A stretch of 33,185 bases of DNA from an uncultured Bacilli bacterium (GTDB lineage Bacteria; Bacillota_I; Bacilli_A; RF39; UBA660), in contig CANQWT010000008.1 in NCBI GenBank assembly GCA_947627635.1, positions 1 through 33,185 of the forward strand, in the 5' to 3' direction. Each line of letters opens with the position of its first letter. Within the stretch, counting starts at the first letter, position 1. Made by a program: the position numbers and the translations under genes. The notes beneath the pieces were generated by a model. It had not been told where the DNA came from. It worked only from the letters and a program-made list of their open reading frames with translations, and ran no database searches. Positions 17,461 to 29,258 of this stretch are shown piece after piece.

Positions 17461-18150
17461 CTAATTATAATCTTTTAATTTGTTCATTCTCAGTAAAATT
17501 TTGGTCTCGATATTGTCATACTTTGCCGTAATTTCTAAGTGATAGATACCTTTATCTTGAATGTATTTTGTAACATCACTTATATATTTACCATCATAAA
17601 GTTCTTTATCCTTCTTCTCCTTTTTTATAATCGTAAGATGGGTGTATTTCGTATCACTCATTTTAACCCATTTTTGATTTCTACCATCAAAACTACAACG
17701 AACTTGCTTCTTATTTTTAAGACAACTATAAGATTGGATTTTCAGTTTGAAATCTCCTCGATGATGGTTATACTCATAATAAAAATTCTCATTCCCATAA
17801 ATATAGTCAATATTGCGATAATAGCGATTTACATTGACTAAATAAGGAATTACAGAGATTTTTTGCTTCAGATGGGTTTCTACTGCCACAATTGTATCAT
17901 TGACTTTGACTTCATAGACACGACTTTTATTTTCAGGGTATTCAAAAGGAATATCGATTTCTATCGTATGAAAAATCAGTTTAATCAAAAGAACTACAAG
18001 TGCGAGAACAACCAAAATCAAAAAGTACTTTTTCATTTGAGTTCGTTTGACTTGATTGTCATACTTTTTAAGTTCCAAAACGATTTCTCTACTCTGTTTT
18101 ACCAATTCTGCGTTGTTATGAGCCTTGGGTAAATCTTGTTGTTTCATCAC
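17461..18150 (-). CDS. Hypothetical single-TM protein
   Basis: 229-aa frame with one TM helix (YFLILVVLALVVLLIKLIF) and a predicted external domain. Confidence 0.75.
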   Translation of the reverse strand: MMKQQDLPKAHNNAELVKQSREIVLELKKYDNQVKRTQMKKYFLILVVLALVVLLIKLIFHTIEIDIPFEYPENKSRVYEVKVNDTIVAVETHLKQKISVIPYLVNVNRYYRNIDYIYGNENFYYEYNHHRGDFKLKIQSYSCLKNKKQVRCSFDGRNQKWVKMSDTKYTHLTIIKKEKKDKELYDGKYISDVTKYIQDKGIYHLEITAKYDNIETKILLRMNKLKDYN

Positions 18151-18222: not shown

Positions 18223-20061
18223 TTACCCTAAAATTCGACGAACCCATTTCACATATTCTTGTACAACATTGCTAGTTTTACTCTCGTAAATGGTATTTTT
18301 AGCTAAAGTGATATTGTCTGTGATAATATTATCAACGTTTAAATCTATCATTTTCTGAATATTTTCTTTTGTATTAACTGTCCAAACATAAAGTTCTTTT
18401 CCAGCCTTATGAACTTGTCTTACTAAAGTTCTAGTGACACTAGATGCTTCTATACTAAAATGGTCGGCAGCATCAAGCTCTGTAATCTTACCATAAGCAA
18501 GGCTCATGACATAAACTGTTTCAACATTTTTAGAAGCTTTTTTAACTTTTTCTAAGACTTCATAGACTTGAGAGGTAATCACACAATTCTTTTCAAAATG
18601 ATATTTTTGAATGAGTGACACCACATCTTCTTCAAAATGTTTCTCTTTGCCTGTTGGCTTTAACTCAATGTTTAACTTGATACGGTTTTCTTTGGCATAA
18701 CGAATAACTTCTTCTAAAAGAGGAATTCTCGCGTCTTTATATTTAGGATTTAGAAAACTTCCAGCATCTAAGTTTTGAACCTCATCATAAGTTACATCCC
18801 ATGTGTTCTTATTGACGCCTGTAGTTCTTTTTAAATTGGTATCATGTAGGACAATGAGCTTTAAATCTTTGGTTTGCTGCACATCAAGTTCTACCCATGA
18901 AGCTCCTAGTTTTTTCGCGCCTTGAAAAGCAAGCATTGTATTTTCAGGATATTTGATAGAAGCTCCACGATGGGCTGTGACTTCCATTGTTCTTACATAT
19001 TCAATATTCATATTATATCCTCCATTGAGGACTGAAGTTGTAAGTAACGTACCACTAAGAAGAACTAAAACAAGGATAACATATTTTAAAATTTGTGCCA
19101 TTTTCTTCTTCTTTTGAACCGTTTTACCCTTTTCTTCTACTGGAATAGAAATAATTTTTTCCTGTTTTTCTTCTTTATGAAGATAGAATAAGACACTAAT
19201 CATTGCATAACTAATCGGTGTTGTCAAAAGGAACATGACAATTAAAGAAATGGCAATCAGCATCCAAACAACAGTAATTGATAGATTTTCTATCACTTTA
19301 ATTTTTCCTAAAAATTGGTAAACTAAAACGATGATAAAGATACCTAAAACAAGCATAAAGATATAGAATATAGCAATTAAAACTTGTGTAAGTATTAAGA
19401 ATAAGCAGTCTTTTATTCTGTGCTTTTTACTTAAACAGATACTTCTTTTTCGAGCCTCTTTAAACGTACAGTTTTCAAGTACAAAGTAGTGTAAGACATA
19501 AAACCATCTAAAAAATAGATAAAGAAGTCCAAGAAATAAAACAGCATACAAAAGAAGTAAGAAGGAATTTTGATAAATATAGTCTTTAATAAACTCAGGA
19601 ATTTTAATGGTTGTAATAAAGCCCTGTGATATTCCTATGTTTAAAAATGGAATTAAAAACAAAACTAAGAACGGTAAGAAAATATTGCGAACGTGAAAGA
19701 CTTGAAGTGACTTAGAAAGTGCCATTAAAAAGGCATCTTTTATCGTGATTTTCTTTTTCTCATTGGAACAGGCTAAAATAATGATGACTGTACTAATATC
19801 TAATAATGTATAAAAGGTAAGTACAATGAGTAACAAAACTAAAAAGAAAAGTGTAAACGGATGAAGTAAAAAGGAAATACAATTTTCAAATGTTAAGTAA
19901 TCATAACCACTCCATTTTGTTAATAAACTAAACAATGTTAAAAACAAAGGTACAAAGATGAGCGTTGTCAAAAGTTTATAAATAAGTTCAAACCCTAATA
20001 GTGTTTTAAAATTATAGTTTAAGAGTTGTTTGAATTTTTTACGCATAGTCATCACTTCCAA
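18223..20061 (-). CDS. Membrane-anchored glycerophosphodiester phosphodiesterase
   Basis: N-terminal multi-TM domain, C-terminal GDPD domain (VTAHRGASIKYPENTMLAF, LIVLHDTNLKRTTG, KLNIELKPTG). Confidence 0.93.
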   Translation of the reverse strand: MEVMTMRKKFKQLLNYNFKTLLGFELIYKLLTTLIFVPLFLTLFSLLTKWSGYDYLTFENCISFLLHPFTLFFLVLLLIVLTFYTLLDISTVIIILACSNEKKKITIKDAFLMALSKSLQVFHVRNIFLPFLVLFLIPFLNIGISQGFITTIKIPEFIKDYIYQNSFLLLLYAVLFLGLLYLFFRWFYVLHYFVLENCTFKEARKRSICLSKKHRIKDCLFLILTQVLIAIFYIFMLVLGIFIIVLVYQFLGKIKVIENLSITVVWMLIAISLIVMFLLTTPISYAMISVLFYLHKEEKQEKIISIPVEEKGKTVQKKKKMAQILKYVILVLVLLSGTLLTTSVLNGGYNMNIEYVRTMEVTAHRGASIKYPENTMLAFQGAKKLGASWVELDVQQTKDLKLIVLHDTNLKRTTGVNKNTWDVTYDEVQNLDAGSFLNPKYKDARIPLLEEVIRYAKENRIKLNIELKPTGKEKHFEEDVVSLIQKYHFEKNCVITSQVYEVLEKVKKASKNVETVYVMSLAYGKITELDAADHFSIEASSVTRTLVRQVHKAGKELYVWTVNTKENIQKMIDLNVDNIITDNITLAKNTIYESKTSNVVQEYVKWVRRILG

Positions 20062-20096: not shown

Positions 20097-20115
20097 GAAT
20101 TGTTTTCTACAACTC
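20097..20115 (-). terminator. Terminator of the MMPL gene
   Basis: GAGTTGT-AGAAA-ACAATTC then TTTTTT on the minus strand, overlapping the stop. Confidence 0.7.
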
Positions 20116-23100
20116 TTTTCTTCTTTTCTTTATAAAGAGCTTATCACAACAAGCTAAAATGGCAGGAAGTAAGACGAGTATCAAAATGGTAGAACAAATT
20201 GTTCCTTCTGAAATGGTCTTACAAATTTTAGAGGCAATTGCTGAAGTAAAACAAGCAATAATCAAAGTTACTATAATTAAAATAGAACTAGAAGTAAAAA
20301 TGGTATGAGCTGACTGTTTATAGGAAGATATGACAGCATCTTTAATGGACATACTTTTACGGTGTTCCAAATAGTATGAAGTATATAAAATCGCATAATC
20401 AATGGTCGCACCCATTAAAATACTTTGAACAATAAGTAAAGCAATAAAGTAGACATTATCACCTGTAATCGTAAGTATTCCCATAGTTAAGTAAACAGCA
20501 CACTGAATGATAAACACTAAAATCAAAGGAATAATAAGCGACTTAAAGGTCAAGGCTACCACAATGAAAATTGCAAGCATTGTGATAATGGTTATCAAGT
20601 TGAGTTCATTATTAAACGTCTTTTGCATTTCATTTGCCATTGGTGAGTTTCCAATGATATAAAATTCCTGCATCTCTTTTTTTAGAAGTTTTTCCAGCGT
20701 ATCTATTTTCTTAAATAGCCTCTTGCTTTCAACATTCAAATTGGTATTTAACACAATTCTTGAATACTCTTTTCCCACTAATTGCTTTTTCGCATCTAAA
20801 ACGGTCTTCTTCGCATCAGTAATATCCTTTCGCATCGTGCCATCTATAAAATCTTGATATCGTTCATCTTTTAAAATGGTCTGATTTAAATAAGTTACAA
20901 ATTCTTGAATAGTCATCATCCATTCTTCGTGATAGTTTCGAGAGCTTCCATAATAAGTATAGAGTACATCAATTAAGTTTTTCTCTACCGTATTAGAAAG
21001 TGTCGATAAAATTGCAAAGATTTCTTTGGAAGTATAACACACATGATTTTGACTAGCTTTCATAATTGCCTGAGCTGTTTGAAGTTTACTCAACTTGTTT
21101 GGAGTAAATTTATCTTGATAAGCTTCGTTTGTTGCAACAGTATTGAGTAAAAAATCAACAAACTCTTCTAAAGATGCGAACTTCTCTGTAGAACGGTACT
21201 GATAACAATATAGTCCATATAATAACTGAACACTTTCTCTATCTAGTCCAAGTAAGTTGGCTAAAGATGTACTATCATATTTTTGATTTTCTAAGACACT
21301 TGTAATAATTGTTCTTACCCAAGTAAGTTCCTTCAGCATAGAGCCTGTTAAAGCATTTTGAAATACGGAAGCATCTTTGTTATCCAAAATAAAGTCAATG
21401 AACTCTAAAGGTGTTAAGACCGTGGTGTTATTCATAGTCTTATAAAGGGTGTAAATCTTTTCAAATGTTACCTCATCAGCTTCTAAGAAAGCTGATAAAT
21501 CTTTGGCACTAAAGCTTTGATTATTTTCCGCAGAAGTCATTATCTTTTCAAGGAACTGAAGTTTTAAAACAGTCGCATCATCAAGCTCTATGAACTTATT
21601 AGTTTCTAAAGTTAATAAGTCGTTAACAAATTGAGATGGAGTAGTTTGTAAAGATAGTTGTCCTCTTACTAAATCGATGAAATGATAGAGTTGATTGATT
21701 TGCTTTCTATCCAAATTTAAAAGGCTTGCAAGAGACGTGTAATCATACTCTGTTGTATCACTTAAAAGTGTTTGATTTTGTTTGAGTTCTTCCAATAGAG
21801 TTGTATCAAAGTCTTCTAAATACGTTGTCTTTTCTTGGACTTCTAAAAGTCCATTCAAAAAGTCCATTACTGTATGAGTGTTCGTATTTTCTTGCTCTAG
21901 CTCTTTTAAAAGTAATAGTTCTTTTACCTTCTCTTCACTCATTTCAAAAAGAGTAGAAATTTCACTAGTAGTCATTTCTCTTTGAATGGTCTTCACATTA
22001 CTGAAGGTCGATAAGAGTTTCATCTGCGTTTGCGTTTTTGTATCTAATAAGCTTTGGTAAGAAGGATTTTTAGCAACAGTTTCTAAAACAAAGCTAGAAA
22101 AATCTTGAATGGTCAGTGTTGGTTCTTCGAAATTGAGAGAAACATAATATTGATAGATTTGTCTAACAAGTTCTTCATCCAGTCCAAAGAACTTTGCCAT
22201 CGAAGAAAAATCTTTTGCCTCAGTTAACTGTTCTTCTACAAGGAAAGGACTTAGTCTTTCTATCTGGCCTCTTGCTTCTTTAGAAATTCTTCCTGCATAC
22301 TTTTCATTCGTTAAAACATTATGATTTATAAATTCAATGAAGGATTTGAGTGAGAGTTTTGTATCATGATTTAAGCTCAAGTAATAAATCATCAACTCTT
22401 CCTGACTGTCGTTATCAATTTCAAGGAGTTTTGAAAACTCTTCCTGACTTCTTGCTCTAGTCCTCTCATTTGTCAAGACAAAGTTTTTTAAACGAGTAAT
22501 ATCCTGTCTTGTAGCTTCGTCAATTTCTTTACTGGTCTTAGGATTTGTTAAAGCTTCTTGTTCAATAAAATCAATAAACTGTTCGAAAGTCATTTTGGTT
22601 TGGGTCTCATCCTGATTATAATAGTTATAATAAATGATTTTTAATAAGTAATCATCGACTTCTACATTAGAACCTAAATCTTTCAGTTGTTGTTTTAAAT
22701 CCTTATAAGTTAAACGCTCATCAATGGTATTGCCATAGCCTAAAACTTCTTTGAAGTCTTCATCTTGTTCGAGTTTATCGAGATACTTTCTAATTTTTTC
22801 TTCTTCCTTATTATTATAGACAATTGCCATTTGATTATTTTCTTGGAAAACTTTAGAAATCTCATCTGACTGACGGTCCGTATAGTCAATTTTTAAATTT
22901 CCTTTCAATAGGAAGCTTCCTACAAAAACAAGAAGTAATAGTGGAAGTGATAGGAAGCGAAAGCGATAACTCATTTTTCCAAGAGAAGTGAGCTTTAATG
23001 CAGGGCTTTTCTTTTTGGTCTTCTCAATTTGCTTATCAAACATTAAAATGAGTGCGGGAAGGACAAAGAAAATACAAATTAGGCTAAATAAAACACCTTT

Positions 23101-23964
23101 AGCTAAAATGAAACCTAAGTCTTTTCCAATTTTAAAGCTCATGAAAACAAGCGCTAAAAGTCCTACAATGGTCGTAATAGAACTACTAGAAATAGACTGG
23201 AATGCTTGATGAAGTGCTTGTTTCATTGCCACAACTTTATCAGGTGTTTTCTTCTTTTCTTGGTCATATCGGTTCATCAACATAATGGAATAGTCCATCG
23301 ATAAAGCCATTTGTAATATCGCAGAAATAGAGTTTGTAATATGAGAAATACTAGGAAAGAAGATATTGGTTCCTTTATTGAGGACCACAGCCATCAAAAT
23401 AGTTATTAAGAATAAGAATGGTTCTACATAAGAAGAACACATGATTATCAAAATGATTAAAGCACAGAAGACTGCAAGGGCAACAATCCAAATAGATAAT
23501 ACTGTTTTATTACACTCATCAACTTCCCCACTTGTATAAAATTCATAATCTTGATACTTTTTGATGATGGTATTATAAACTTTTTTGGCAATAGATTCAT
23601 CTTCTTTCCCTTCGATGGTTAGAACATAAAGCGTATTATTGCCTTTGTTGTAGTCTTCAGTCTTGTCATAATCAACTTTTTTGACATGTTCTATTCCTTC
23701 TAGTTCTTCTTTAATGATTTCCTTTTCCTTTGCTTTTAAGTCTTTAAACATAATATTTAAACTACACTCGTCTATCCCTTTAAAAGCTTCTTCCATTTTA
23801 TCCATACCAATTCTTGTTTTTGAAGTATCTAGCAAGTATTTAGAAATATCATAGTTGATTTTGACAGAATTTGAAAAATATAGAGATACTCCTGTCAAAA
23901 GTATAAAAATACATAAAATTAAATATCGTTTATCAATAATAAAATCTGTTATTTTTTTCATCAT
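20107..23964 (-). CDS. MMPL/RND-family transporter with expanded repeat-containing ectodomain
   Basis: Two RND-like membrane halves (SMDYSIMLMNRYDQE and MGATIDYAILYTSYYLEHRK) separated by about 750 aa of extracytoplasmic sequence. Confidence 0.93.
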   Translation of the reverse strand: MMKKITDFIIDKRYLILCIFILLTGVSLYFSNSVKINYDISKYLLDTSKTRIGMDKMEEAFKGIDECSLNIMFKDLKAKEKEIIKEELEGIEHVKKVDYDKTEDYNKGNNTLYVLTIEGKEDESIAKKVYNTIIKKYQDYEFYTSGEVDECNKTVLSIWIVALAVFCALIILIIMCSSYVEPFLFLITILMAVVLNKGTNIFFPSISHITNSISAILQMALSMDYSIMLMNRYDQEKKKTPDKVVAMKQALHQAFQSISSSSITTIVGLLALVFMSFKIGKDLGFILAKGVLFSLICIFFVLPALILMFDKQIEKTKKKSPALKLTSLGKMSYRFRFLSLPLLLLVFVGSFLLKGNLKIDYTDRQSDEISKVFQENNQMAIVYNNKEEEKIRKYLDKLEQDEDFKEVLGYGNTIDERLTYKDLKQQLKDLGSNVEVDDYLLKIIYYNYYNQDETQTKMTFEQFIDFIEQEALTNPKTSKEIDEATRQDITRLKNFVLTNERTRARSQEEFSKLLEIDNDSQEELMIYYLSLNHDTKLSLKSFIEFINHNVLTNEKYAGRISKEARGQIERLSPFLVEEQLTEAKDFSSMAKFFGLDEELVRQIYQYYVSLNFEEPTLTIQDFSSFVLETVAKNPSYQSLLDTKTQTQMKLLSTFSNVKTIQREMTTSEISTLFEMSEEKVKELLLLKELEQENTNTHTVMDFLNGLLEVQEKTTYLEDFDTTLLEELKQNQTLLSDTTEYDYTSLASLLNLDRKQINQLYHFIDLVRGQLSLQTTPSQFVNDLLTLETNKFIELDDATVLKLQFLEKIMTSAENNQSFSAKDLSAFLEADEVTFEKIYTLYKTMNNTTVLTPLEFIDFILDNKDASVFQNALTGSMLKELTWVRTIITSVLENQKYDSTSLANLLGLDRESVQLLYGLYCYQYRSTEKFASLEEFVDFLLNTVATNEAYQDKFTPNKLSKLQTAQAIMKASQNHVCYTSKEIFAILSTLSNTVEKNLIDVLYTYYGSSRNYHEEWMMTIQEFVTYLNQTILKDERYQDFIDGTMRKDITDAKKTVLDAKKQLVGKEYSRIVLNTNLNVESKRLFKKIDTLEKLLKKEMQEFYIIGNSPMANEMQKTFNNELNLITIITMLAIFIVVALTFKSLIIPLILVFIIQCAVYLTMGILTITGDNVYFIALLIVQSILMGATIDYAILYTSYYLEHRKSMSIKDAVISSYKQSAHTIFTSSSILIIVTLIIACFTSAIASKICKTISEGTICSTILILVLLPAILACCDKLFIKKRRKEL
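20767..22713 (-). repeat. About 8 degenerate ~80-aa tandem repeats inside the MMPL protein (aa 418-1066)
   Basis: Recurring pattern (Y/F)-(T/S)-S-x2-L-x2-L-L-x-L-D..(L/I)Y..Y..T...F..F(I/V)..(L/V)L.. Confidence 0.75.
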
Positions 23965-24041: not shown

Positions 24042-24059
24042 GTGTCTAAATTTAGACAC
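24042..24059. promoter_or_regulatory. Putative TetR-family operator
   Basis: Perfect 18-bp palindrome GTGTCTAAATTTAGACAC in the divergent MMPL/TetR intergenic region. Confidence 0.75.
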
Positions 24060-24122: not shown

Positions 24123-24683
24123 TTGAAAGAAATGAAAGTTCAATGTCTAAATTCTTCTTCTATCAAAACAAGAGAACGAATTAAAAAAGCTCTTGTCACT
24201 TTAATTCATGAGAAGAAGTGTCTTGATAAAATTACGGTCAAAGAGCTTGTAGAAAAAGCTGATATTACAAGAAGTACTTTTTATACGCATTATGATAATC
24301 TTGACCAAGTTGCGAATGAGTATCAAATGCAAACAATTGAACTTTTATGTAGTGATGATTTAAAGCTTTATTCAAAAGATGATATCTTAAATTATTTTAA
24401 TACACTCTATACTTGCCTAAAGGAAAATGAAGAAACTTATCGATTACTATTAACGTCCAATGATACTCTTTTCTTTTTAGAAAAGCTTAAGATTATTGCT
24501 AGTAGAAAAATCAAGGATGCTTTAGGAATAACGATGAATAGTGATGCTAAAAATCTTACAATATCCTTTTTTATGAATGGGATTATGATAGAAATTGTAA
24601 GATACTTTCGAGGGGAAAGTACTGTGACTTTAGAAGAATTATTTGAACAAATAAAAAAATGGTTTGAACGACTATTCATTTAG
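24123..24683 (+). CDS. TetR/AcrR-family transcriptional regulator
   Basis: TRERIKKALVTLIHEKKCLDKITVKELVEKADITRSTFYTHYDNLDQV helix-turn-helix. Confidence 0.92.
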   Translation: MKEMKVQCLNSSSIKTRERIKKALVTLIHEKKCLDKITVKELVEKADITRSTFYTHYDNLDQVANEYQMQTIELLCSDDLKLYSKDDILNYFNTLYTCLKENEETYRLLLTSNDTLFFLEKLKIIASRKIKDALGITMNSDAKNLTISFFMNGIMIEIVRYFRGESTVTLEELFEQIKKWFERLFI

Positions 24684-24712: not shown

Positions 24713-25345
24713 TTACAGTTCCTTCTTGGAATATACTTTGAGTGAAATAAAATAAGAAAGAGCAAGGATTATAAGAGATAAGAGAATGAGGGTTGGTACC
24801 CAAATATTTTTAAAGAATGCCAAACCATTAAGGATTTGATTCAAATCTATAGCACTTGCAAGTGCCTGTACTGCAAAAGCTAATACAAAAACAACTAGGA
24901 AGATACCAATTCTTGCTTTTTCAAGACCAAATTTATAGATGGCAGGATAAGAGATGCAAAGAATGGTTATGGTTGTAAAAATTGTACCAAGCATTTTTTC
25001 TAAAAGAAGCACAAGCTCTAGTGGTTGCTTTTTGATACAAATCAAAATCACTTGGAAAAAGAACGTTATCAAGCTCGTCAGTAAAATTAGAATGAGGGTT
25101 GTAATATATTTTGCTCTCACACTGCCTGCTCTACCTTTGGGAAATGTTGCAACATAGCTATCCCAATGATTAAAAGTATCATAACTAAATGTCATCATCA
25201 TGAGTAAAACACTCATAAATGGAAGGATAAAAGAAAAGTCCATTTCGCCTATAAATCCTAGAAAAAGATAGATGAGAAGAACTAGTAAATAACTTTTACT
25301 ACTGTTTTTCAAAAGAAGAAAATCTTTCTTAATAAGCCCTAACAT
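24713..25345 (-). CDS. ABC-2 type permease subunit
   Basis: 210-aa six-TM protein; overlaps the ATPase gene. Confidence 0.8.
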   Translation of the reverse strand: MLGLIKKDFLLLKNSSKSYLLVLLIYLFLGFIGEMDFSFILPFMSVLLMMMTFSYDTFNHWDSYVATFPKGRAGSVRAKYITTLILILLTSLITFFFQVILICIKKQPLELVLLLEKMLGTIFTTITILCISYPAIYKFGLEKARIGIFLVVFVLAFAVQALASAIDLNQILNGLAFFKNIWVPTLILLSLIILALSYFISLKVYSKKEL

Positions 25346-26205
25346 TTTAAATCATCTCCTTTAATCATCAATAACATTAACTCATCTAAAGTAATAGTAT
25401 CTAAAACTTCACAGTTGTATTTCTTTTGAAAAGCTTTTTTATCTTCTACCAATACTTCATAAAAGTATTTTTCTTTCTTATAGCTTAAATAATCCTTTTG
25501 ATTGATTTGTTTCCATGTATTTTCACTACACTTTGCAATGGCAAACTTATCCATAATTTCATCTCTTGTTTTTGAAAGGAGAATTTGTCCTTGATGAATG
25601 AACGTAATATAGTCTGCGATATGTTCTAAATCAGAAGTGATATGACTGGATAAGAATATGGAATGAGTGCCATCTTCAATGAATTCTTGAAACAATCTAA
25701 GGATTTCGTCTCTAGCAATTGGGTCAAGGCCATTTGTCGGTTCATCACAAATTAAAAGTTTTGGATGATGGGCTAAAGCTGTGATGATTTCTAGTTTTTT
25801 TCGCATTCCTTTGGATAATGTTTTAATCTGTTGCATAGGGCTTATAGAAAACTCCTTTAAAAGTTTATAAAAATAAGTACTATCCCAAGTCTCATAAGTA
25901 TCTTTCATAATCAAATCAATTTCTTTTGCGGATAAAATCTCAGGAAAAAACATATCATCTAACACAACACCAATTTCTTTTTGAACGGTATCAAAATGAG
26001 TGTCTTGACTTTGTCCTAAAATTTCAATTTCACCAGAAGACTTGTGAATTAAATTTAAAATTGCTTTAATCGTTGTTGTTTTTCCTGAACCATTTTCACC
26101 AATAAACCCCATAATCATTCCCTGTGGGAGTGAAAAACTAATATTGTTTAAAGTAAAGTTCTCGTACTTTTTACTTAGATTTTTAACTTCAAGTATTGCT
26201 TCCAT
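25339..26205 (-). CDS. ABC transporter ATP-binding protein
   Basis: GENGSGKTTTIKAIL, LSKGMRKKLEIITAL, LLICDEPTNGLDP. Confidence 0.93.
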   Translation of the reverse strand: MEAILEVKNLSKKYENFTLNNISFSLPQGMIMGFIGENGSGKTTTIKAILNLIHKSSGEIEILGQSQDTHFDTVQKEIGVVLDDMFFPEILSAKEIDLIMKDTYETWDSTYFYKLLKEFSISPMQQIKTLSKGMRKKLEIITALAHHPKLLICDEPTNGLDPIARDEILRLFQEFIEDGTHSIFLSSHITSDLEHIADYITFIHQGQILLSKTRDEIMDKFAIAKCSENTWKQINQKDYLSYKKEKYFYEVLVEDKKAFQKKYNCEVLDTITLDELMLLMIKGDDLKC

Positions 26206-26582
26206 TATTCATCCTCCTCATATAAAATCTCTATGATTTCTAATAATTTTTTCTTACTAATCTTGTTTGCTTTGGCAAGAAGAATAGAAGTAACCAATAA
26301 GTTTTCTATCTTTTGAAGTTGTTCTTCTCTTAAAAGTTCTTGACTAATATGTGCGACATAAAATCCTTTTGCTGGAATGGTTGTAACATACCCTTCTTTT
26401 TGTAATTCCTCATATGCATTTTTGGTAGTAATTACACTACATTTTAAATCTTTCGCAAGACTTCGTATTGATGGAAGACACTCACCACTTTGTAATTCTC
26501 CATTTAAAATCTTTGTCTTGATTTGTTCTTTAATCTGTTCATAAATGGGAACACCACTAGAATTACTAATTATAATTTCCAT
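26205..26582 (-). CDS. GntR-family regulator, YtrA-like
   Basis: GVPIYEQIKEQIKTKILNGELQSGECLPSIRSLAKDLKCSVITTKNAYEELQKEGYV. Start set at MEIIIS because the ORF-track start falls in the -10 box. Confidence 0.92.
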   Translation of the reverse strand: MEIIISNSSGVPIYEQIKEQIKTKILNGELQSGECLPSIRSLAKDLKCSVITTKNAYEELQKEGYVTTIPAKGFYVAHISQELLREEQLQKIENLLVTSILLAKANKISKKKLLEIIEILYEEDE

Positions 26583-26593
26583 ATCATCACTTC

Positions 26594-26634
26594 CTGTATA
26601 TATCAAATATATACAGTATGTACAGAAAAGTCAA
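26594..26634 (-). promoter_or_regulatory. GntR operon promoter overlapped by operator
   Basis: Minus strand TTGACT-17 nt-TATATT (26629-26634 / 26606-26611); inverted repeat CTGTATATAT-CAA-ATATATACAG (26594-26616) covers the -10. Confidence 0.82.
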
Positions 26635-27642: not shown

Positions 27643-29211
27643 TTATAATGTGAAGACGAATGGGTCTTCTTTGGTTCCAGTACCACTAAGTTGAACATTG
27701 GATTTTAGATATACAACAGGCCTTACAGTAGTACGTGTACTGTAGGCACTATGACTATTTATTTCTCCATTAGCTGACACAAAGAACACATGAGCCATAT
27801 TGACAGATGATGGTGTAATAGTCCATTGAAAAGTATCATTATTTATTGGATTTATACTTTTAAATATCCAGTCATTATTTCTGCATGGATTTGTATTATA
27901 TTGTTCTGATTTTTGAGTTAAGCATGCAGTTTCACTTGTTGCATAACCGTAGTCACTTGGATAAATTAGTCCTACTTTTCCAAGCCATGATATAGATCTT
28001 TCACTTGTACAAGTTCCATTTGTTTTACATGTAATTGTTCCATGCTCACATTCATAAAGTTTATTTGTTTTAGTCTGATTAGTACTACAAGCACCCAAAT
28101 ACCACTTTGTATCTCCTATCATTTTTTGAGCTTCAGTTGTTAATCCAGTATTTGTGAAATCACAGTCCACAGTTTCACTTTCATTTTCTTCCAAATTGCC
28201 TCGTGGACATTTTCCGCTTTCACTCTCCCAATAGAGGCTTCCTTTTCCATCTGAGGCAAGAGGATTAGTTTCATATCCAGGATTTAGTAGCATCATTAGT
28301 CTTGCATCCGTCCAGTTATTACTTCCGTAATTACTTTCTGAAGAACCTACACCACTTTGCTTGTTATCTAATGAAATGATTTTACCAGTGCTTGTTTTTA
28401 GAGGACTATTTTTTATGAGTTTTATTCTTTGTTCTTTCTCTCCTTTTTCATTTTCGACTGTAAATACTCCAATAATCCTCCACCCAGCTTTTTCTCCATT
28501 AAAAGTTACATAATTGTTCGGATCAGTTCCTATATATCTATAATCCGTTAAATCATCATAAGTCCAATCTGTTTGCTGGCTTCCTGCTTCATGGTGATAG
28601 ATAAACATTTTATCTTTTGTTTCGTCATTATATCCCGTGTTCTCTTCGTTAATGTATTCTTTCATTGGTATATCTTCTGGTATTGTAAATTTTGTTTCTT
28701 CAAATAAATGTCCATTACTTGGAATATTTAAATCAAATTTTTCTAATCCAACGTCTAATTTGAGTTGTATTGTTTGACTACTTTCAGTTTTATTTCTTAC
28801 TCTTATTTTGTATGTTTCTGTTATATCTTTATCTATCTTTCTTCCTTTATCTTCAGGTGGTATTTGAAGTGCATTTCCAACTATATATCCTATTTCTAAA
28901 TTATTTGGGAATGTTCCTATATAATAAAGGAGATATCTTGCAGTCCTATCATTATTATTTTTTAAGGTAATTGTAAACTCTTTGGTTTCTCCTTGATTTA
29001 CTACTAACTTGTCTGTCTCTACATTATCAACTTTCAACTCTCCTGTTAGGGTTCCAGTAATAATTCTTATGGCTTCTTTCTGTTCACTACTTACTGTGAA
29101 CATAGCATAACTAAAGTATCCCACTACTATGAAAATGCTTAATATTGCTATTACAATTAAATAACTTTTTTCTATCTTCATTCTTTTTAGAAATAACTTT
29201 AATGTTCTCAT
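27643..29211 (-). CDS. Surface-anchored protein; N-terminal TM plus TasA/camelysin-like segment, C-terminal WRIIGVF...RPVVYLKSNV domain
   Basis: Single N-terminal TM, then LVVNQGETKEFTITLKNNNDRTARY. C-terminal pattern resembles a surface-protein family of uncultured gut Firmicutes (from memory). Start moved to MRTLKL because the ORF-track ATG overlaps the -10. Confidence 0.7.
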   Translation of the reverse strand: MRTLKLFLKRMKIEKSYLIVIAILSIFIVVGYFSYAMFTVSSEQKEAIRIITGTLTGELKVDNVETDKLVVNQGETKEFTITLKNNNDRTARYLLYYIGTFPNNLEIGYIVGNALQIPPEDKGRKIDKDITETYKIRVRNKTESSQTIQLKLDVGLEKFDLNIPSNGHLFEETKFTIPEDIPMKEYINEENTGYNDETKDKMFIYHHEAGSQQTDWTYDDLTDYRYIGTDPNNYVTFNGEKAGWRIIGVFTVENEKGEKEQRIKLIKNSPLKTSTGKIISLDNKQSGVGSSESNYGSNNWTDARLMMLLNPGYETNPLASDGKGSLYWESESGKCPRGNLEENESETVDCDFTNTGLTTEAQKMIGDTKWYLGACSTNQTKTNKLYECEHGTITCKTNGTCTSERSISWLGKVGLIYPSDYGYATSETACLTQKSEQYNTNPCRNNDWIFKSINPINNDTFQWTITPSSVNMAHVFFVSANGEINSHSAYSTRTTVRPVVYLKSNVQLSGTGTKEDPFVFTL

Positions 29212-29230
29212 ATGACACCATCCTAGTGTC

Positions 29231-29258
29231 ATTATATATCATTAAAAGTACCCCCCCC
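29231..29258 (-). promoter_or_regulatory. Promoter with G8 homopolymer at the -35/spacer
   Basis: Minus strand GGGGGGGG-TACTTTTAATGATA-TATAAT upstream of the surface gene. Confidence 0.55.

Follow-up and report, generated by a model that had tools for sequence, protein, structure and literature searches.

A tandem array of helical repeats in the second ectodomain of an MMPL/RND transporter from an uncultured Bacilli bacterium

Introduction

In the Mycobacterium transporters MmpL5 and MmpL4 an insert forms an antiparallel coiled coil of 196 residues, with MmpS and AcpM as partners of the pump; in MmpL5 the insert lies in periplasmic domain 2 and is required for efflux (PMC12501195). MmpL10 is reported to oligomerise via its coiled-coil domain (PMC12183618). 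For Staphylococcus aureus, passages on FarE/FarR describe a divergent TetR layout and name fatty acids and phospholipid as exports of the FarE protein (PMC8844917, PMC10019231).

The transporter described here shares its core fold with MmpL5 and MmpL4, which are the best Foldseek matches of an ortholog model, and its second porter domain likewise bears a large helical insert, although this insert consists of ~640 residues of short-helix modules and has no recurring partner gene beside it. With FarE/FarR, compared by description and not by sequence, it has in common an RND pump, a divergent TetR gene and a monoderm Bacilli host, whereas the eight-unit array belongs to the protein described here and the FarE passages mention none. 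The present locus, with its divergent TetR gene and conserved intergenic palindrome, is a candidate for a FarE/FarR-type layout.

Results

The pump gene and the core of its product

The window, by which we mean the whole stretch of 33,185 nucleotides analyzed (contig CANQWT010000008.1, positions 1 to 33,185), encodes a protein of 1285 aa that is a real MMPL/RND transporter. It matches Pfam MMPL (PF03176) in two stretches with an E-value of 1.1e-42 (146.7 bits, against a cut-off of 20.5) and is the only protein in the genome with MMPL matches above the Pfam cut-off. A model of a full-length seven-unit ortholog (L103) finds MmpL5/MmpL4 in Foldseek with E-values of 2.5e-18 and 7.5e-15 and a probability of 1.00. 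Asp-Tyr pairs in TM4 and TM10 are proton-relay residues, as in MmpL3, and the corresponding pairs here, D224-Y225 (TM4) and D1189-Y1190 (TM10), are invariant among the 52 orthologs compared. The gene and the parts of its core are as follows.

20107..23964, minus strand: MMPL/RND transporter gene (ORF of 1285 aa; Pfam MMPL)
22909..23964, minus strand: N-terminal half, with TM1, the first ectodomain and the helices from TM2 to the one that precedes the second ectodomain, including D224-Y225 (from the L103 model)
22714..22908, minus strand: first part of the second ectodomain, a porter-fold beta-alpha-beta element (from DSSP of the models)
20110..20787, minus strand: C-terminal half, with the end of the second ectodomain (YSRIVLNT..), TM8-12 and D1189-Y1190 (from Pfam and the invariant pair)

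Only the second ectodomain is enlarged, the first being ~125 aa long and without insert in the L103 model, and the models place the whole array between the beta-alpha-beta element and the strands that complete the porter fold. Array-free MMPL proteins in this lineage are 687-701 aa long, so the insert adds ~600 aa to the 1285-aa protein; an earlier sequence-only reading had remarked that ordinary MMPL loops are much smaller.

Eight tandem repeat units

The array comprises eight tandem units of ~79 aa (range 76-87 aa) at aa 418-1059, and the unit starts that the sequence-only reading had given, at aa 418, 505, 585, 664, 742, 818, 896 and 977, are exact. The self-comparison proposed there places the repeats far above shuffled sequence: all-against-all BLOSUM62 local scores between units average 54.2, whereas shuffling the units gives a mean of 27.5 (sd 1.0), a z of 25.7. 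All eight are detected, with E-values from 6e-12 to 9e-23, by a profile that was made with the window units and then rebuilt on homologs; degeneration is greatest in units 4 and 5.

22453..22713, minus strand: repeat unit 1, aa 418-504 (HMM E 7e-19)
22213..22452, minus strand: repeat unit 2, aa 505-584 (HMM E 6e-19)
21976..22212, minus strand: repeat unit 3, aa 585-663 (HMM E 4e-20)
21742..21975, minus strand: repeat unit 4, aa 664-741, the least conserved (HMM E 6e-12; conservation)
21514..21741, minus strand: repeat unit 5, aa 742-817 (HMM E 5e-13)
21280..21513, minus strand: repeat unit 6, aa 818-895 (HMM E 4e-17)
21037..21279, minus strand: repeat unit 7, aa 896-976 (HMM E 9e-23)
20788..21036, minus strand: repeat unit 8, aa 977-1059 (HMM E 5e-20)

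The unit consensus spans 77 positions, SSKELANLLGIDKELVKLLYLLYNSKNNENNTKLTLKEFVNFILNDVLNNEKYKSKIDEETKNKLKLLKTIMNSSLN, with aromatic or hydrophobic residues recurring in each unit at Y20, Y23, F39 and F42. Units 1-8 of the window protein together contain 64 K+R and 102 D+E, and most homolog arrays are likewise net negative; this acidic character makes it less likely that the array simply binds acidic wall polymers.

Predicted structure of the array

The window array (aa 354-1112) was modelled with AlphaFold2 using 39 orthologs, with good local confidence (pLDDT 85.3, pTM 0.58), and L103 was modelled at full length (pLDDT 81); pTM values across the models, 0.52-0.58, are moderate and say little on overall shape. 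Each unit is predicted to start with a short helix, followed by a long one, one of ~12 residues and finally a longer one; most units have a very short helical turn before the last, and short beta bridges precede the first and third helices. The sequence-only reading had described a unit as one helix followed by a further segment; its helical nature holds throughout, although the models contain four main helices per unit. These helices are ~20 residues or shorter with loops between them, giving a string of small modules, and repeated four-helix modules are predicted instead of one globular non-repetitive domain. The long antiparallel coiled coil of MmpL4/5-type pumps is absent from the array models. 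The suggestion that the array is a helical stalk or docking arm survives in part: the array is all-helical, repetitive, located in the ectodomain and variable in copy number, but stiffness and docking are unsupported, with predicted helices that are short and separated by loops and no recurring partner gene.

A Foldseek search with the array alone gave no significant match, and no family in Pfam, NCBIfam or PDB profile searches with the unit accounts for the repeat. We found no binding function for the array, and nothing relevant in the literature on such repeats in MMPL proteins.

The unit recalls EF-hand pairs (calmodulin-like lobes) in its helix-loop-helix pairs, which short beta bridges connect, and in the (T/S)xxEF motif that opens one of its helices. 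An EF-hand was taken to have a calcium-binding loop with acidic residues at positions 1, 3, 5 and 12 and a significant profile match. The unit differs in being without the calcium-loop residues: the loop positions are mostly Asn or mixed, and the last acidic position alone is kept. A myosin light chain is matched with a phmmer E-value of 0.026, PDB profiles find an EF-hand protein at E 0.32 only, and no EF-hand family is among the 25 families listed in profile searches with 34 units. The likeness is thus a weak resemblance and no membership. A relation to HTH proteins was also rejected, the weak and scattered HTH-family matches stemming from the short-helix-turn-helix part of the unit, as was homology to a designed CAP repeat protein (E 9e-9), where the score is made up of five 26-residue matches that are nearly identical and reach 7 bits each.

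Distribution and copy number in relatives

Comparison of repeat number between relatives, also proposed in the sequence-only reading, shows that it varies. Among 80 related loci from GTDB species genomes, mostly 'Lapin'-series MAGs labelled Bacilli or Clostridia, there are 7 units in 14 loci, 8 in 47, 9 in 18 and 10 in one. At the genus level the pump gene is matched in 6/6 genomes, one of which contains a frame of 1372 aa, as long as in nine-unit members. A family-level search matches the 1285-aa protein in 70 of 145 genomes, many via array-free MMPLs alone, and complete genes contain 6 to 9 units, with six in one member. In MMPLs of 745-749 aa a single weak unit occurs, located as in the window protein. 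The presence of unit-less MMPLs in the same family indicates that the array is dispensable for MMPL transport as such.

Outside the family, MMPLs of other Bacilli families contain 2, 3, 5 or 7 units, some of these counts being taken after profile iteration, which inflates E-values; a search without iteration gives E 1.3e-8 for one of them. Seven Bacilli MMPLs (L055, L193, L191, L196, L190, L189 and L186) resemble the window protein in carrying the unit, in 1-7 copies, before a conserved Y.R(I/L) strand, and differ in having fewer copies, units of down to ~65 aa and, mostly, a source in other Bacilli families. Bar weak chance-level matches, every protein seen to carry the unit is an MMPL of Bacilli, in searches with no systematic coverage of true Clostridia. 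No match covering 80% of the 1285-aa protein is present in the plasmid collection.

Two further groups of MMPL proteins were seen. Three from other Bacilli families (L184, L187 and L188) have large second-ectodomain inserts that the unit profile barely matches or does not match, and these are possibly more diverged versions of the insert in the window protein. Four array-free family MMPLs (L051, L052, L053 and L056) continue without a frame break into ~550 aa of C-terminal extension, found in at least four genomes, with a signal-like segment at its start and small-residue/Leu patterns that resemble those of YhgE/Pip proteins; the extension reflects either gene fusion or read-through.

Evolution of the array

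Units of 54 eight-unit orthologs have the same-numbered window unit as their best match in 94.7% of cases, rising to 100% for units 1-3, 7 and 8. Members with seven or nine units have lost or gained units mainly around units 3-5, and conservation is U-shaped along the array, from 0.64 in unit 1 through 0.50 in unit 4 to 0.66 in unit 8. Positional orthology, mid-array copy change and U-shaped conservation together indicate that the array, which is not peculiar to the source genome, is old and anchored at both ends. Relaxed constraint in the middle could also produce the variability there.

A divergent TetR gene and a conserved palindrome

A regulator gene and an intergenic palindrome lie upstream of the pump gene.

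24132..24683, plus strand: divergent TetR-family regulator gene (TetR_C_8 E 1.8e-6, above cut-off; TetR_N weak)
24042..24059, no strand: 18-bp perfect palindrome GTGTCTAAATTTAGACAC, probable TetR operator, between the pump gene and the TetR gene

The start of the TetR gene was placed by eye at ATG 24132; the ORF list gives an in-frame TTG at 24123. Where 700 bp or more of upstream sequence is available (74 orthologs), 60 have a divergent TetR gene next to them. The palindrome GTGTCTAAATTTAGACAC has one site in the window, with 0.05 expected at up to 3 mismatches, and its 16-mer core, allowing up to 2 mismatches, is found upstream of 52/76 orthologs compared with 0/76 shuffled upstreams. It is placed as expected of an autoregulatory TetR operator, which it probably is. 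A regulon search with the exact 16-bp palindrome returned one site in the genome, at the pump gene, and at most one per relative, with no further target.

Other neighbors and the cell envelope

No neighbor gene other than TetR recurs often at the ortholog loci, be it a partner or a biosynthetic gene, a pattern that fits an inducible pump standing alone better than one within a dedicated biosynthetic cluster. A gene 45 bp downstream of the pump gene was considered and rejected as linked to it, since a homolog adjoins 0/80 orthologs.

18223-20061, minus strand: glycerophosphodiester phosphodiesterase (GDPD) with a membrane domain

Elsewhere in the window, a GntR regulator, an ABC ATPase and an ABC-2 permease (24713-26606, minus strand) resemble the PmtR/PmtA phenol-soluble modulin export operon at scores below NCBIfam cut-offs. 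ORFs of 229 aa (17461-18150, minus strand) and 529 aa (27643-29232, minus strand) have no Pfam match above cut-off.

The genome contains five PBP-type transpeptidase matches and several sortases, and there is a FemAB gene in the window. These genes indicate peptidoglycan, and the source bacterium likely has a cell wall; a wall is predicted in most species of order RF39 (PMC10868615), to which the source genome likely belongs, judging by its size and its relatives.

Discussion

The reading that we prefer, and to which we give slightly less than an even chance, is that of an inducible amphiphile exporter with a looped-out arm. The MMPL/RND pump would be proton-driven and would export a membrane-active amphiphile such as a lipid or fatty acid, with the divergently transcribed TetR regulator controlling the pump gene at the 18-bp palindrome. 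The array begins and ends at one subdomain of the second porter domain and should therefore loop out; from the conserved ends, the variable middle and the point of insertion we infer that the end units would be fixed to the pump, with the middle units as the distal, variable part. The array would then act as a modular spacer or guide that brings the substrate, or a surface for contacts, from the membrane out into the peptidoglycan zone. An arm is its most likely role in view of the MmpL5 insert, which sits in the same half of the protein, and a reasonable one to infer, helped by the variable middle and fixed ends.

The array may instead be a docking or oligomerization scaffold, its units binding a partner or other protomers and their number setting the geometry of the assembly, without guiding substrate. 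The positional orthology of the units and the high conservation of those at the ends would suit a distinct interface in each, and oligomerization has a precedent in the report on MmpL10 cited above, but no partner gene recurs beside the pump gene, and we consider a scaffold unlikely. Improbable, in our estimate, is a multi-lobe binding domain in which serial hydrophobic pockets take up the amphiphile and buffer or pass it on at the outer face; the residues repeated at Y20, Y23, F39 and F42 and the prediction of helical modules fit such lobes, yet an ordinary helical core needs such aromatic and hydrophobic residues too. That the array is an insert with hardly any specific function, which an exposed site tolerates and whose unit number drifts, agrees with the poorly conserved, number-variable middle units and with the unit-less MMPLs of the family, but sits badly with the positional identity kept in eight-unit orthologs, complete for units 1-3, 7 and 8, and with a match in every genome of the genus, and we think it quite doubtful.

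The spacer or guide arm of the preferred reading can be taken further, to a length-adjustable, wall-reaching arm of monoderm bacteria that carries lipid through the peptidoglycan and whose unit number is tuned to wall thickness. This is a long shot; if true, the arm would parallel the mycobacterial coiled-coil tube and be made of a different repeat.

The repeat is a helical unit that is in no library searched and that only Bacilli MMPL pumps were seen to carry, and the palindrome provides a candidate TetR operator for a putative lipid exporter of uncultured gut Bacilli. With the unit present in 0 to 10 copies, these transporters form a graded series that makes the role of an RND ectodomain insert testable by unit number, and the array may represent a second way of extending an MMPL pump outward, next to the coiled coil of mycobacteria.
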